A DNA stretch of 49,654 bases from a virus, in IMG/VR virus record IMGVR_UViG_3300034164_000003, positions 1 to 49,654 of that record; one strand, given 5' to 3'. The notes below the pieces were generated by a model that worked only from the letters and a program-made list of their open reading frames with translations, searched no databases and was not told the DNA's origin. Below are positions 1-47,036 of this stretch, one piece after another (within the stretch, counting starts at the first letter, position 1; each line of letters begins with the position of its first letter). A program made the translations under genes and the position numbers.

Positions 1-627
<627 letters not shown>

Positions 628-628
<1 letters not shown>

Positions 629-3227: not shown

Positions 3228-3841
3228 TAATCCACAACGTTCAACAGGGGTCAGATGCCTGGTACGCAGTGCGCGCAGGGCTCCCCACGGCCTCAGAATT
3301 TAGCAAGCTGATTACCAGCACCGGCGAGCCGTCCAAGTCTCTATCAGGCTATGCCATTACGCTCGCGGCTGAAAAGTATGCCGGGAAGCCTATTGAAACA
3401 TGGGAAGGCAATAAATATACCGACCGAGGGAAGGAATTGGAGCCAGACGCCAAATCTCTCTACGCCTTCATGCACGATCAAAATCTTGAGCCTGTCGGGT
3501 TTGTTACCGATGATTTACAACTATACGGCTGTTCGCCGGATAGCTGGGCGGGGACCGAAGGATTGGCCGAAATTAAATGTCTCAAGGCGGAGAACCACGT
3601 CAAGGCCATTCTTTACTATCGAAAGCATAAAAGATGCCATCCGGACTACGTACAACAGACCCAAGGGCAATTATTGGTCTGTGAAAGGGCGTGGTGCGAC
3701 CTGATTTTCTATCATCCCGATCTACCCATGCTGACAATACGGCAGGAGCGCGATCAAGCGATTATCGGCGCGCTTAGGGTTCATCTTGATTTAGTGATCG
3801 AGGAACGAGATAGAGTTCTAACCGCAATTGAGGAGCAGTGA
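3224..3841 (+). CDS. YqaJ/lambda-type viral recombination exonuclease
   Basis: 205 residues starting with GTG at 3224, overlapping the erf stop. The N-terminal GSDAWYAVRAGLPTASEF is the YqaJ signature, and the PD-(D/E)XK core is visible as CSPDSWAG followed by GLAEIKC (acidic residue, then E-I-K). Such enzymes degrade one strand of duplex DNA from the 5' end and supply single strands to the annealing protein encoded just upstream. Confidence 0.88.
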   Translation: MIIHNVQQGSDAWYAVRAGLPTASEFSKLITSTGEPSKSLSGYAITLAAEKYAGKPIETWEGNKYTDRGKELEPDAKSLYAFMHDQNLEPVGFVTDDLQLYGCSPDSWAGTEGLAEIKCLKAENHVKAILYYRKHKRCHPDYVQQTQGQLLVCERAWCDLIFYHPDLPMLTIRQERDQAIIGALRVHLDLVIEERDRVLTAIEEQ

Positions 3842-3941
3842 CAGGGGATTTTTGTTTAAGGCAATCCCCCGGAAGCGCCCCGCCTCGTGGCGCGTCAAAA
3901 ACGAGGCTGAATCTTCACCGGGAAAATAGGAGCCGTATCTG

Positions 3942-4397
3942 ATGAGCGAGATCAATACCCACAATCTTATCGTCGATTTCGGTAAGCATAAAGGCGAACT
4001 TTATACGCGCCTGCCAGTCAGTTATTTATTTTGGATGACCAATGCGAACCATAGCCGCGCAGATATCGCCAAGGCCGAGCTTGAGCGCCGTGGCACGGTA
4101 TTACCAACACTCGATATCAGCGGACACGCTATTGACCGTGCATCGCTGTCTTGCCGCAAAATTTGGCATCAGACCAAGCAAGAGAATGAGGGCCTGCATG
4201 CTTGGCTCGTGCGTATCACAACGGAAGCTATTGCCGAAAATAAACAGGATAAGAGCGGGAGATATTGTTACAACGGAATGCGCTTTGCCGTGGAGATGGA
4301 TGGATGCTGGCCTGTGCTTAAAACTGTGATGGTGGATATAGCAGAAGAATTAATTAAACGGGTCGATGAACAAATATCAAGGGCGAAATGTGACTAA
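3942..4397 (+). CDS. Protein with DUF3820-like N-terminal motif
   Basis: 151 residues. The first ~45 (VDFGKHKGELYTRLPVSYLF) match the short module of DUF3820 proteins and of exonuclease X-type C-termini. The remainder is mixed alpha/beta and unrecognised. It follows the recombination genes after a 100-base gap containing small GC-rich hairpins, and has AATAGGAGCC upstream of the ATG. A link to DNA processing is inferred from position only. Confidence 0.65.
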   Translation: MSEINTHNLIVDFGKHKGELYTRLPVSYLFWMTNANHSRADIAKAELERRGTVLPTLDISGHAIDRASLSCRKIWHQTKQENEGLHAWLVRITTEAIAENKQDKSGRYCYNGMRFAVEMDGCWPVLKTVMVDIAEELIKRVDEQISRAKCD

Positions 4398-7646: not shown

Positions 7647-8186
7647 ATGACTGACGATGACAAAGAGTTGCTTGAGGAATTAAAGGTACTTTGTGAAAAA
7701 GCAACCCCGGAACCGTGGTATAGCTACGAGGGCGATCTAATGACAGGACCGCTGACGGATGGCTATGGTCCCAAAATAGGATCATTTAATTTTATCAGAA
7801 CACGTCACGGCAAAGAAACGTCTTACGTCACCGATCAGGCATTTGAAGATTCGCATTTTGTAGAAAAAGCCAGGTCGGCTATTCCGCGGTTACTCGCCAT
7901 CATCGAATCCCTACAGGCTAGGATAGAGGAACAGGCGAAGGAAGCAAAGATATTGGAAGAATCGCTAACATTCTATGCCGACCCAGAAACCTATTTTGCT
8001 ATTGGCTTCTTTGCTGATCCACCATGCGGCGAGTTTATGACCGACTTTGAAGACCTACCGGAATTTGGAGCATGGAAGCCTGGGAAGCGCGCAAGAGAAG
8101 CTGCTAGAAATTATTTAGCTATCTTGGATAAGAAAAAGAAAGAACTCGAAACCCAACTGCGAGGGCGAAATGAAAGCAAAAACTAA
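7647..8186 (+). CDS. Ead/Ea22-like early protein, 179 aa
   Basis: Contains WYSYEGDLMTG, then FVEKARSAIPRLLAIIESLQ and a coiled coil, the arrangement of Ead/Ea22-like proteins of lambdoid early regions. The SLTFYADPETYFA segment echoes LKFYADKSKWH of the previous gene. Role unknown. Its end overlaps the HNH endonuclease gene by 17 bases. Confidence 0.6.
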   Translation: MTDDDKELLEELKVLCEKATPEPWYSYEGDLMTGPLTDGYGPKIGSFNFIRTRHGKETSYVTDQAFEDSHFVEKARSAIPRLLAIIESLQARIEEQAKEAKILEESLTFYADPETYFAIGFFADPPCGEFMTDFEDLPEFGAWKPGKRAREAARNYLAILDKKKKELETQLRGRNESKN

Positions 8187-8667
8187 TTTTACACAACAAC
8201 GTCTTAAAGAACTGTTTCATTACGATCCAGATACTGGCGTATTTATTCGACTTGTACGCACCTCCAATCGCATAAAAGTTGGGGATATTGCTGGTAGTTT
8301 AGATAACCATGGTCATTTGGTAATTAGTGTTTTTGACAGCAAGTATCTCGCCCATCGCCTCGCCTGGCTCTATATGACAGGAGAGTGGCCGACCAATCAA
8401 ATAGACCATAAAAATACCATCCGTGACGACAACCGTTGGGAAAATCTACGAGAGGCAACGCATTCTATTAATACTCAGAATTTGCGAAAGCCTCACTGCG
8501 ATAACAAAACCGGATTCCTTGGCGTGACCCAAGGGCGCAAAGGTTTCCGGGCCACCATTGGTCTTGGCAAAAAAGATTACCATCTCGGCACTTTCCAAAC
8601 AGCAGAATTAGCGCATGAAGCTTATCTCAAAGCTAAGCGCAAGCTCCATGCAGGGTGCACGATATGA
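8170..8667 (+). CDS. HNH endonuclease with AP2 DNA-binding domain
   Basis: 165 residues. The HNH motif runs from LAHRLAWLYMTGEWP through IDHKNTIRDDNRWENLREAT; the AP2-like domain covers ~115-160 (NKTGFLGVTQGRKGFRATI, HLGTFQTAELAHEAYL). Such proteins are homing endonucleases that cut intron- or gene-free alleles. This one is free-standing at the 3' end of an early gene, just before a tRNA gene. Confidence 0.88.
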   Translation: MKAKTNFTQQRLKELFHYDPDTGVFIRLVRTSNRIKVGDIAGSLDNHGHLVISVFDSKYLAHRLAWLYMTGEWPTNQIDHKNTIRDDNRWENLREATHSINTQNLRKPHCDNKTGFLGVTQGRKGFRATIGLGKKDYHLGTFQTAELAHEAYLKAKRKLHAGCTI

Positions 8668-8709: not shown

Positions 8710-8784
8710 CAGGGCGTAAGTCATCGGTAGACGACCGGGCTTGGAACTCGGAGGTAGTGGGTTCAATTCCCACCGCCCTGACCA
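8710..8784 (+). tRNA. tRNA-Pro (UGG)
   Basis: 75 nt with encoded CCA. The acceptor stem CAGGGCG/CGCCCTG is perfectly paired. The D stem is GTC/GAC, the anticodon stem CCGGG/CTCGG with one wobble pair and loop CTTGGAA (anticodon TGG), and the T arm GTGGG-TTCAATT-CCCAC. C1-G72 and A73 fit proline identity. It lies between an HNH gene and the RtcB gene and should be co-transcribed with the early operon. Confidence 0.92.
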
Positions 8785-10809: not shown

Positions 10810-11004
10810 ATGGACCCGGCGCGCTACGTTTTGCCTATAAAGTTTGAAGAATTGACTGGCTATACGGTCAAGGCCGTGGAGCGCAAGATAGAATCCGATG
10901 TATGGAGGGAAGGGCGCGAGTACCGCAAGGCTCCTGACGGGAGAATCCTAATTGATCTTGAGGGATACTATAAATGGGTAGAAGGTCAAAGACGGGCGGG
11001 ATAA
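10810..11004 (+). CDS. Excisionase-like DNA-binding protein
   Basis: 64 residues (IKFEELTGYTVKAVERKI, EYRKAPDGRILIDLEGYYKW), a winged-helix excisionase type. It overlaps the integrase start by 31 bases in another frame, the common xis-int arrangement. It would direct Int towards prophage excision by binding arm DNA near attP. Confidence 0.75.
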   Translation: MDPARYVLPIKFEELTGYTVKAVERKIESDVWREGREYRKAPDGRILIDLEGYYKWVEGQRRAG

Positions 11005-12146
11005 TATCAAAGGGCGACCGCGTTCAGTTTGATTTCACCATAGGCCGGACGCGATACAGACCGACAATTGACAACATTCCAACCGAAGCAAACCTACGCC
11101 GTGCCCGCAAAAGACTGGAAGATATAAAACGACGCATCCGCTCTGGAACGTTTGATTTTGCCGAAGAGTTTCCAGACTACAGATTTATTAGCAAGGTCTC
11201 CTCTGAAATACCCATTTTTGACACATTAGCCGATCAATGGCTTGCCTCCATTAAAAGTGAAGTAGAGTTTTCTACCTACGAAAGCTATCGAAAAATCCTA
11301 GCGTATTTTTGGCGGCCACGCATCGGTAAAAAATACGTCAACAGCGTAAAGTATTCCGATCTCACCACAGAGCTTGCAAATTATCCCTGGCAGTCTCGCA
11401 AAACCCGCAACAACGTCGTCAGCGTGGCCCGGTTAGTGTTTGACTTTGGCGTTACTGACAACGTTATTTCTCGCTCACCGGCACAGAACCTAAAAAGCCT
11501 AAAGATTCAAAAAACACCGCCAGATCCTTACCCCGTTGAGGAGGCCGAGGCAATCATTAGCGGGATATTAAAAGATTGGGGTCAATATGACTCCAACTAT
11601 GTTGAATTTGGATTCTTTACCGGGACCAGGCCCTCAGAGTCTATTGCCCTGCAATGGCCCGATATTGACCTTAAACGCGGTATCGCGCGCATAGATAAAG
11701 CAAGGGTCATGGCGCGAGACAAGGACCGCACCAAAACATCGGTAGCGCGAGAAATTGAGTTATGCCCCCGCGCCCTGGCGATTTTAAAAAAACAGTGGAC
11801 ACTTACCGGGCTGCAAGGAAAGCATGTTTTCGGCCAAGACAACGGTAGACCATATCATGACCTACAAATGCCCTGGAGCCGTTGGCAATACACCCACAAG
11901 CGCCTAAAAATGCGCTACCGGGAGCCCTATCAAATGCGGCATACCTCCGTCACCTGGAATCTGATGATCGGTAAAAACCTGCTTTGGGTAGCCGAGCAAC
12001 ACGGCCACAGCCCCGCGGTCATGTTGAAGACCTACGCCAAGTGGTTAAAAGGCGCGACCGAAAACGATGTAGACCTGATTCGGCGTGTCATGGGATTTGG
12101 CACTAATTCGGCACTAGCCTTTTTCAAAAAGACCGATTCCCATTAA
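10974..12146 (+). CDS. int: Tyrosine-family phage integrase
   Basis: 390 residues. An N-terminal Arm domain of DUF3596 type (RRSKTGGIISKGDRVQFDF), a core-binding domain (~75-165) and a catalytic domain with GTRPSESIALQW (Arg I), PYQMRHTSVT (Arg II; the usual first His of HxxR is Tyr), GHS (His) and LKTYAKW (nucleophilic Tyr). It catalyses site-specific recombination between attP, which directly follows the gene, and a bacterial tRNA-Ser gene. Two arm-type repeats lie inside its last codons. Confidence 0.95.
   Translation: MGRRSKTGGIISKGDRVQFDFTIGRTRYRPTIDNIPTEANLRRARKRLEDIKRRIRSGTFDFAEEFPDYRFISKVSSEIPIFDTLADQWLASIKSEVEFSTYESYRKILAYFWRPRIGKKYVNSVKYSDLTTELANYPWQSRKTRNNVVSVARLVFDFGVTDNVISRSPAQNLKSLKIQKTPPDPYPVEEAEAIISGILKDWGQYDSNYVEFGFFTGTRPSESIALQWPDIDLKRGIARIDKARVMARDKDRTKTSVAREIELCPRALAILKKQWTLTGLQGKHVFGQDNGRPYHDLQMPWSRWQYTHKRLKMRYREPYQMRHTSVTWNLMIGKNLLWVAEQHGHSPAVMLKTYAKWLKGATENDVDLIRRVMGFGTNSALAFFKKTDSH
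12094..12117 (+). repeat. P-arm integrase-binding repeats
   Basis: Two adjacent same-direction copies, GATTTGGCACTA then AATTCGGCACTAG, sit in the last codons of int. The same pair recurs at 12271-12295 on the other side of the tRNA-like core. That is the layout of arm-type sites bound by the integrase N-terminal domain. Confidence 0.7.
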
Positions 12147-27105: not shown

Positions 27106-28327
27106 CTAGGCGGCACTATCCCATTTCACGATACGGACTTGATCCACGGAAGCCGCATTGGCATGGACAATGCCCATCCCCCCCAGGTAGTACCACGCAA
27201 TACCCTTGGACCGTCCGTAGTCGCTCGGCATCTTCGCCCGGATTTCCTCCGCGACCGCGACACCTTCCATCACCGTGTCCTCACCGAAGAAGTAAATCCA
27301 ATCGTTACCGTTCGCCCAGGGTGTCGCCGTAACACCACCAGCTATAGGATTGAAACCCTTGGCGATATTGGTCTGCTCGATATGCCGGATATTTTCGTAA
27401 CGTCCGATTTCTCCGTTCATAATCATTGCAAAACCTTCGGAGGTGTACTGATGGATCGACTCCAAGTCGTTCTTCAACCGACGGTAGGTCGCAGGCCAGC
27501 CAATTGCAAAGTAATCGTCGCCGGCATAGGGAGGCAGATTTCGCTCTTTCATCAAGTCGGAGAGTATTTTTGCATGCTCTTTCTGGTAGACGATATTGTT
27601 GGTCAGCGTTGCGGTTCCGTTTGTGGTTAACGTAACGGAAGTAGTGGACGTGCCGGACGCAGGGACTACACGCAGGAGGGTCGCGTTGAATTGCGAGTGC
27701 GCGGCATAGTCAAACGCCTTCTTGGCGTCGTTCTTAAGCCCGCGCATGATCGGCTTTTTAACCGATTGCTTCGCCAGGGACTCCAGCTTGCCGGTATAGG
27801 GGATCGAGTTGCCTAACTCGTTGACGGTTAACGTTCCCTGAATTACCCGGAAGTTACTTTCCGGCATGGTGTTGGTTTCCACCAACGTGCCGCCCTGGGT
27901 TTGGATATTGAGATAAATATTCCAGTGGAAATTTTCGCCACGATTCTTACCGTAGGCGGACTGGAGGTCTGCAAATTGTCTGATGCTTTCTTCATTCCGG
28001 TTCGTTATGTCGGAACCGCCTTTCGGCTGCTGCATGTCTCCATGCAGGCGAGACTATATCTTCACGCTTTCGCGTGCTGTGCGCTTCGAGCCACTTGGCT
28101 CTACTCCCTTTCGGGATAGTCGTTGAACCTTCCGGATTTCTCCGGCTTGGCTGCTGATTGCCCTCGTCTTTACGTTAGGGGTTCCCAGTCAGTTCACACA
28201 GTTTTAACGTCAAGCTCAGCTAAGCTAACTTGACTTCGGGCTGCACTGCATCCCGAAATTCCTCAGACAGAGGTTCTTTAAACATGAAGCCGCCAAGTGA
28301 GTTGACGGCCCAGAGATTACCGGCCAT
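27106..28327 (-). CDS. Major capsid protein, interrupted by a group I intron
   Basis: Exon 1 is 28327-28228 (MAGNLWAVNSLGGFMF to QPEVK plus one base, after AGGAG); exon 2 is 27983-27106. Without splicing exon 1 stops at TAG six bases into the intron. Splicing gives 978 bases, 325 residues, with the join reading EVKF-RQFADLQ, as in the continuous capsid proteins of related phages (VKFRQFCD from memory). Later motifs TNTMPESNFRVIQGTLTV and WDSAA-stop also fit the family. Self-assembling HK97-type shell subunit, just after the scaffold gene. Confidence 0.88.
27984..28227 (-). ncRNA. Group I self-splicing intron, ORF-less, ~244 nt
   Basis: P1: exon GTCAAGT pairs with guide GCTTGAC (28215-28209), with U28228-G28215 wobble at the splice site. 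P10: exon 2 TCAG pairs with CTGA (28219-28216). Q-like AATCAGCAGCCAAGC; P6a CCGGA-GAAA-TCCGG; P7 GACTAT (28121-28116) with ATAGTC (28057-28052) within R-like GTTCAACGACTA and S-like AAGATATAGTC; P8 GAGCC-AAGT-GGCTC; P9-type hairpins 28047-28030, 28027-28018 and 28017-27999. The last intron base is A (27984), not the usual G; G27986 is an alternative end. Read from 28227 down to 27984. Confidence 0.9.
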
Positions 28328-42969: not shown

Positions 42970-43227
42970 TTATTTTAAAATGCCCTCCTCAATCGCCCTA
43001 CCCAATGTCCGCGCTACATATTCCAACTGACTACCGTGACGCTCCTCCCATGATTGCCACCCGCGTGAATGCAGGTCCGTATGTTCCATGCGGGTAAGTG
43101 GGATTACGGCCCAATCAGCCGCCTTCACTGAACCGCCGAAACCGTGTCCCTTTATGTGATGTGGTTCCGTGCCGATTTGTTCGCTAATACAACTCGGCAG
43201 AGTTCTAACATAGGCCAGATATTTCAT
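42970..43227 (-). CDS. Ref/DUF968-like HNH recombination nuclease
   Basis: 85 residues from Met 43227 (MKYLAYVRTLPSC); in-frame Mets at 43263 and 43287 overlap the HNH-AP2 gene and may be used. TEPHHIKGHGFGGSVKAADW and PLTRMEHTDLHSRGW carry the His cluster of Ref-type nucleases, which cut DNA beside RecA filaments in P1. Confidence 0.75.
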   Translation of the reverse strand: MKYLAYVRTLPSCISEQIGTEPHHIKGHGFGGSVKAADWAVIPLTRMEHTDLHSRGWQSWEERHGSQLEYVARTLGRAIEEGILK

Positions 43228-43705
43228 GGATTCCCATCTCTTTTTCTTTTGCAAATCTTGCATTGATTGCCTCTTCTCTATTTTCATAAAATCCTATGTG
43301 CTCGCGTGATTTTTTGCCCCCAATGTAAGCATGCCATTTCTGCAAACGCTTATTCCATGAAACTCCCTTGTGACCGGAAATATTATTAGATGGAATGCCG
43401 GAATTAAATGAATTTATTCTCTTTGTCGCTTCGCGCAGATTCTCTATTCTATTGTCGCCCTTAATTCGATTTATATGGTCTAGCATAATTGGCTTATACC
43501 CAAAATGGTAAATCCATACTAGATGATGTACCTTCCAAGGCCGACCGGAAAAATGCGTAACTATGTAACCGTCTTTGTCTTTCGTTCCTACGATTGATCC
43601 AGCCTTCCATATTCTGCAACTATCTATTGTTTTTATTCGCGTTAGAAATCCTGTGCTTTCATTATATGAAAAACATTCGCGCAACAGTCTTTGCATTTTA
43701 GTCAT
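43205..43705 (-). CDS. HNH endonuclease with AP2-like domain
   Basis: 166 residues. VHHLVWIYHFGYKPIMLDHI then RIKGDNRIENLREATKRINS is the HNH core; ISGHKGVSWNKRLQKWHAYI and HIGFYENREEAINARF form the AP2-like part. It starts in an ATGA overlap with a truncated Ref-like frame and ends inside the intact Ref-like gene, so it looks inserted in that locus. Confidence 0.88.
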   Translation of the reverse strand: MTKMQRLLRECFSYNESTGFLTRIKTIDSCRIWKAGSIVGTKDKDGYIVTHFSGRPWKVHHLVWIYHFGYKPIMLDHINRIKGDNRIENLREATKRINSFNSGIPSNNISGHKGVSWNKRLQKWHAYIGGKKSREHIGFYENREEAINARFAKEKEMGIHEISGLC

Positions 43706-46059: not shown

Positions 46060-46692
46060 CTATGTCGTTAGCTTTTTACGTTTGTTAATTTCTACAGCAG
46101 CAGTCAGAACTCTTTCTATGGGCCAGCCATATCTAATTCTTTGTGAAAGCGTTGTTTGACAAATTTCAAGCTCTCGACTCCATTCGGTCAGGGTCAAAGA
46201 ACGACCGTTATGAGTTAATATTCTGTTATTACGGCGATTGTTATGTTGCTCAATTCCGGTCGCCCATCGACAATTATTTGGTTCGTAATTGCCGTTATTG
46301 TTTTTACGATCAATGGAAAGTTTTAGCGGACGCTCACCCATGTCGGCCAAGAAGTTTTCAAATGTGAGCCAGTGTTCGCAAACTGTGATGCCGCGGCCGC
46401 CATAGTTTTTATATCCGATAGATTTTTTATCAAAGCAACGCCTTATCATTTCATACCATATTTTATGAGTTGCGTTGGTGCTGAAACCATGCTTTGTCTT
46501 GTTCGCTGTTAATAATTCACTCCTTAAACAACCACATGATCTTGTGGTGCCTTTTAAAAGGTTGCCGCGCAATACAGTAACGGTATTCCCGCAATCACAC
46601 TTACAAAGCCATCGCTTCTTATAATGCTTGTCGCGCCCATTGGAAGAGATCGCCAAAAGGCGACCAAATCTTTTGTTTAATAGATCGCTCAT
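46060..46692 (-). CDS. HNH endonuclease with N-terminal zinc finger
   Basis: 210 residues from Met 46692 (MSDLLNKRFGRLLA). LCKCDCGNTVTVLRGNLLKG and RSCGCL form a zinc finger; HKIWYEMIRRCFDKKSIGY then LSIDRKNNNGNYEPNNCRWA is the HNH-type nuclease core; the C-terminal ~40 residues read as a helix-turn-helix (SLTLTEWSRELEICQTTL). Typical homing endonuclease of phage introns or intergenic spaces. Confidence 0.85.
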   Translation of the reverse strand: MSDLLNKRFGRLLAISSNGRDKHYKKRWLCKCDCGNTVTVLRGNLLKGTTRSCGCLRSELLTANKTKHGFSTNATHKIWYEMIRRCFDKKSIGYKNYGGRGITVCEHWLTFENFLADMGERPLKLSIDRKNNNGNYEPNNCRWATGIEQHNNRRNNRILTHNGRSLTLTEWSRELEICQTTLSQRIRYGWPIERVLTAAVEINKRKKLTT

Positions 46693-46694
46693 TT

Positions 46695-47036
46695 TCAGGT
46701 AGGGAAAATGAAAAAAAAGAACTCCGCCCGGCTCGACACGCCGCACTTTTCATAAATCGTAGAGATATGCTGTTTTAAGGTCTTATCGCTGTTGCCGGCG
46801 ATGTGCGCCATATCAGCGGTGGATAGACCTTTCAACAAAAGATGTGCGACTTCCACTTCTTTGAGCGTGAGCGCGGGGACACCGGCCAGGATACGATCAC
46901 GGTGTTGGGTAAGCGGCGTACTGTGTATCGGATGGTAGGTGCTTTTCTTCTCGGCGGCGCGCTCTCTCGCCCATCGATTCTGAGACGCGATCGCTATTTT
47001 ATTTTTTTCTACCGGGAAGCCGTTTTGGAATTTCAT
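46695..47036 (-). CDS. LuxR-type (GerE) HTH regulator, 113 aa
   Basis: Residues ~55-110: ALTLKEVEVAHLLLKGLSTA, AHIAGNSDKTLKQHISTIYE, KCGVSSRAEF, a complete GerE helix-turn-helix. There is no receiver or autoinducer domain; the first ~45 residues are basic and polar. A phage transcription regulator, probably for the leftward operon or lysogeny decision. It ends only two bases before the HNH gene. Confidence 0.85.
   Translation of the reverse strand: MKFQNGFPVEKNKIAIASQNRWARERAAEKKSTYHPIHSTPLTQHRDRILAGVPALTLKEVEVAHLLLKGLSTADMAHIAGNSDKTLKQHISTIYEKCGVSSRAEFFFFIFPT

Follow-up and report, generated by a model that had tools for sequence, protein, structure and literature searches.

The stretch of DNA analysed here, referred to as the window, is the whole of IMG/VR virus record IMGVR_UViG_3300034164_000003 (49,654 bases). 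Its minus strand carries a capsid gene in two exons, the first of which opens with an ATG at 28327. The gene is made up as follows.

28228..28327, minus strand: capsid exon 1 (100 nt), ending GUCAAGU; its frame and its N-terminus MAGxxWxxxxLGG are conserved in homologues
27984..28227, minus strand: group I intron (244 nt, no homing gene), placed by an RF00028 match of 85.2 bits and by junction enumeration
28220..28222, minus strand: in-frame TAG, read from the sequence, at which unspliced reading ends two codons into the intron
27106..27983, minus strand: capsid exon 2 (878 nt with the stop codon), beginning UCAGACAA; phrog_1357 match, homologues 55-63% identical

Removal of 28227-27984 joins the exons into 978 nt encoding 325 amino acids and a stop, with EVKF-RQFADL across the join, which reproduces the reading frame of the original prediction. 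The exon 2 product matches phrog_1357, major head protein, and the earlier assignment of the interrupted gene as the major capsid gene is supported by this match. Since both capsid exons remain open, the gene looks to be in use. Relatives of the capsid protein, of which there are many, were gathered by searching IMG/VR twice and bacterial genomes once. The motif K[FYW]RQ[FY] is free of any inserted residue in 102 of 103 distinct relatives aligned over the N-terminus, so that KF continues ungapped into RQF as proposed; the remaining relative (NRLQF) is an out-of-frame reading at an intron. The predicted joined product matches the expectation for the family.

The intervening 244 nt match Rfam RF00028 in the correct orientation, scoring 85.2 bits (E 2.2e-20) where the gathering score is 50, the sole match to that model in the 49,654-base record, and the computed single-strand fold of the intron is better than that of all 200 shuffles (z -5.5). 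For covariation, relatives were found with a core pattern, 48 introns including that of the window were aligned, and the window's helices were counted over 43 pairs. The elements of the fold are listed below.

28195..28201, minus strand: P3 5' strand CUGUGUG; 98.8% of cells paired, 5/7 pairs changed on both sides
28077..28083, minus strand: P3 3' strand CGCACAG, from the 48-intron covariation count
28185..28191, minus strand: P4 5' strand with one bulged A; 99.3% of cells paired
28152..28157, minus strand: P4 3' strand UCAGCA, from the 48-intron covariation count
28117..28123, minus strand: P7 5' strand ACGACUA, with the guanosine-site G at 28121; 100% of cells paired
28051..28056, minus strand: P7 3' strand UAGUCU, with the guanosine-site C at 28052, from the 48-intron covariation count
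28084..28116, minus strand: P7.1 and P7.2 hairpins in the stretch between P7 and P3, both in the fold; layout of subgroup IA
28063..28076, minus strand: P8 hairpin CACGC-GAAA-GCGUG; 92.8% of cells paired, 5/5 pairs changed on both sides
28030..28047, minus strand: P9 hairpin CUGCAU-AUGCAG; 80.6% of cells paired, 5/6 pairs changed on both sides

Across the 48 introns, 91.3% of structure cells pair, compared with 30-43% in slid controls, and none of 500 shuffles reaches this value; cells changed on both sides number 300, compared with 50-103 when the pairing partners are slid. The core helices P3, P4, P6, P7 and P8 are all present with covariation. P7 consists of the 6 bp originally described plus one bulged C. 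The guanosine-site pair (G 28121-C 28052) is normal and is invariant in 48/48 introns, fixed core bases being partly selected because the aligned relatives came via a core pattern; the covariation in P3, P8 and P9 is free of this selection. With the covariance-model match and the helix covariation both bearing out the proposed 244-nt element, it is virtually certain that 28227-27984 is a group I intron. The presence of P7.1 and P7.2 indicates subgroup IA, and their layout probably places the intron in IA2.

The intact ribozyme core also bears on whether the gene is spliced at all. A 309-aa ORF at 27106-28035 appears in the ORF-finder output, so that the capsid could be read as starting at the internal ATG at 28035, the upstream stretch being a separate short gene. 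However, the first residues of this ORF are intron sequence (P9.1, P9.2 and the tail), and the conserved N-terminus of the homologues lies in exon 1. Translation from the internal ATG was rejected on these three grounds, and an unspliced gene is a very remote prospect.

As the original prediction had noted, the 244-nt intron holds no homing endonuclease gene; the core extends throughout it and leaves no room for one. The intron is most likely a resident selfish element. Elsewhere in the window there are three free-standing HNH endonuclease genes (8170-8667, plus strand; 43205-43705 and 46060-46746, minus strand). A tyrosine-type phage integrase gene (10974-12146, plus strand) and a tRNA gene (8710-8781, plus strand) are also present, suggesting a temperate phage. 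An ORF at 20-628 (plus strand) contains a long GSGSGYGYGDG low-complexity run.

The ends of the intron were mapped by enumerating, here and in each related intron, every pair of ends that restores the peptide of the homologues. Two junctions keep the frame of the window's gene, namely exon-final AAGU with intron-final A, or exon-final AAGUU with intron-final U; neither gives an intron-final G, and no junction yielding KFRQF does. Because the 5' helix of the RF00028 match falls within exon 1, the P1 used here differs from that of the model and was set by pairing of the exon end. The following elements define the junction with exon-final AAGU.

28228..28234, minus strand: P1 exon strand GUCAAGU; 7 bp, U.G at the splice site
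28209..28215, minus strand: P1 guide strand GCUUGAC, pairing with exon-end GUCAAGU
28216..28219, minus strand: P10 guide strand CUGA; 4 bp with exon 2 UCAG at 27980-27983
27984..27984, minus strand: omega, the final base of the intron, which is A rather than G at the junction restoring KFRQF

This junction thus combines a 7-bp P1 with a U.G wobble and a contiguous 4-bp P10, the two pairings originally proposed, and no other position within 35 nt matches the 4 bp of P10. The exon boundaries at the level of the protein, like P1 and P10, come directly from computation, and the predicted P1 and P10 fix both intron ends. A shift of the splice sites would avoid the final A: with exon 1 ending AAGUU before AGC and the intron ending GAAAG before CAUCAG, the exon still ends in U, omega is G and the frame stays open through the join GUCAAGUU-CAUCAG. 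This arrangement, however, adds one isoleucine (KF-I-RQF) to a motif that is ungapped in 102/103 relatives, and it lacks both the P10 and the U.G P1 at the guide sequence, which makes it improbable.

A final G is near-universal among group I introns. The window's intron, taken with the AAGU junction, does not end in G and has A at 27984; the A that the original prediction noted as an oddity is confirmed at that junction. In seven related introns (L019, L276, both of L052, L288, L178 and L112), the junctions always allow an exon-final U with an intron-final G. L176, read against the HTVC010P capsid protein, has the join GCC-T/TC-TTT and likewise ends in G, so that omega-G is allowed in all eight relatives with mapped junctions. 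The automatic P1 finder chose core-internal guide positions for L288 and L052 intron 1 and doubtful ones for L178 and L112, and the P10 values of these introns were not used. Since the window's junctions give no G and the eight mapped relatives allow one, the A at 27984 appears to be a real departure at the level of sequence. A pattern search for further introns that end in a purine and share the window's exact insertion point had no matches, and a pattern joining P7 to exon 2 gave three, all unrelated. The window's junction was also sought in a second record; none was found, although near-identical records may be hidden from such a search. A constant distance between the GAA motif and omega was considered as evidence for A and dropped, since several bases occur at that distance (G 11, T 5, C 4, A 1). 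A P9.0 pairing between a GC in J7/9 and the GC that directly precedes the A is attractive on inspection but inconsistent across relatives, and was not used.

Close DNA relatives of the intron are found in unrelated marine phages, HTVC010P-like and HMO-2011-like, where they interrupt capsid or coat genes. L176 (HTVC010P-like Pelagibacter phage) and L178 and L112 (both HMO-2011-like) have introns of 262-270 nt with 76-80% core DNA similarity to that of the window, in major capsid or coat genes unrelated to the window's capsid gene. Unlike the window's intron, they end in G and have a P2 hairpin (by reading). L176, the nearest DNA relative, shares the contiguous layout of P1 and P10, and its intron likewise interrupts a codon, T^TC.

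Within the window's own capsid family, introns with group I-type core motifs (by reading) are found in L019, L276, L052 (two), L287, L288 and L132. The insertion sites are G12/G13, R35/Q36, about N93 and about G259, in addition to F34 in the window, which gives this single family group I-type introns at no fewer than five positions, with just 5 nt between two of them. Five of these seven introns were mapped, with exon-final U and intron-final G, whereas that of the window ends in A. L052 (3380-3980) has two introns in one capsid gene (273 and 233 nt, after codons 12 and 35); these and the L019 intron fall below the Rfam gathering score. The 233-nt example shows that the original placing of the window's intron at the lower size limit of group I introns was overstated. 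The introns of L019 (2923-3690) and L276 (about 3283-4003) are at R35/Q36, 5 nt downstream of the window's site, and hold nuclease-like ORFs in which a LAGLIDADG-like motif, LAGIIDGEGN, was recognised by eye. The capsid gene is split at about residue 93 in L287 (2948-4000; Aromatoleum anaerobium genome contig) and at about residue 259 in L288 (4676-4994; Candidatus Moraniibacteriota bin), and likewise in L132.

The omega-G allowed in all eight mapped relatives could also mean that the A is non-functional, whether through an error in the consensus or assembly or through a recent mutation of G to A, and that the working intron is ordinary and ends in G. A single substitution separates the window's intron from a canonical one, and the base is known from a single record; however, the consensus of an assembled contig seldom contains errors at single bases. 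An omega-A also occurs naturally in the ND5-717 intron of Stichodactyla haddoni (PMC8146996), and an erroneous or newly mutated base is the less likely explanation, with perhaps a quarter of our confidence. A working group I intron with the exon boundaries given above, omega-A included, is the probable reading of the sequence. It draws on the RF00028 match, the ungapped KF-RQF, the covariation, P1 and P10, the likeness to L176 and the open exons; against it stand the omega-G allowed in the eight mapped relatives and the single record of the virus.

For such a working intron, two-step GTP-initiated splicing would be expected from membership of the family. GTP held in P7 would cut after GUCAAGU, and the freed exon end, held in P1 with exon 2 held by P10, would then attack after the A at 27984 and join KF to RQF. 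We infer that the intron is spliced and that A acts as omega in the second step. This step would be unusual in that A fills the site normally taken by omega-G, with the guanosine-site pair unchanged; P10 may help offset the poorer fit of A in the guanosine site. On balance, we lean slightly towards a phage intron that naturally splices with omega-A, keeps the standard guanosine site and relies in the second step on P10 and neighbouring pairing. As has been suggested for the sea-anemone ND5-717 intron, the A would perhaps restrict hydrolysis at the 3' site and the formation of intron circles.

With this intron the window contributes an example of a compact ribozyme lodged in a capsid gene, and the supply of capsid should depend on its splicing. 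Should the A prove genuine and functional, the intron would serve as a modest experiment of nature on whether group I introns in a phage can do without the final G. The wider pattern of group I-type introns at a minimum of five positions in one capsid family is useful in itself.

Capsid-gene introns have been described previously. The major capsid gene of mycobacteriophage LittleE contains an intron that the authors of that study regard as most likely group I; splicing of this intron was shown by RT-PCR and protein sequencing (PMC3706429). Together with the at least five sites in the family and the unrelated marine phages, LittleE runs counter to the rarity that the original prediction had implied. 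The LittleE intron (about 819 bp) includes an HNH endonuclease gene, ends in G and lies in an unrelated capsid family (PMC3706429), whereas the window's intron is 244 nt long, has no nuclease gene and ends in A. The finding is sound, though ordinary except at the last base of the intron. For that base, the closest parallel cited here is the hexacoral mitochondrial ND5-717 intron, a group I intron that, as in the window, can be without omega-G (PMC8146996; PMC6545197). For the omega-A of Stichodactyla haddoni, the authors suggest a role in preventing circularization and hydrolysis at the 3' site (PMC8146996). Corallimorpharian ND5-717 introns, which are without the essential G, are still spliced out in vivo (PMC6545197). 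The final G is thus not strictly defining for group I introns, as the ND5-717 exception indicates (PMC8146996). ND5-717 introns are mitochondrial, very large and vertically inherited, with genes inside P8, and the likeness to the window's intron is drawn with no claim of close kinship.
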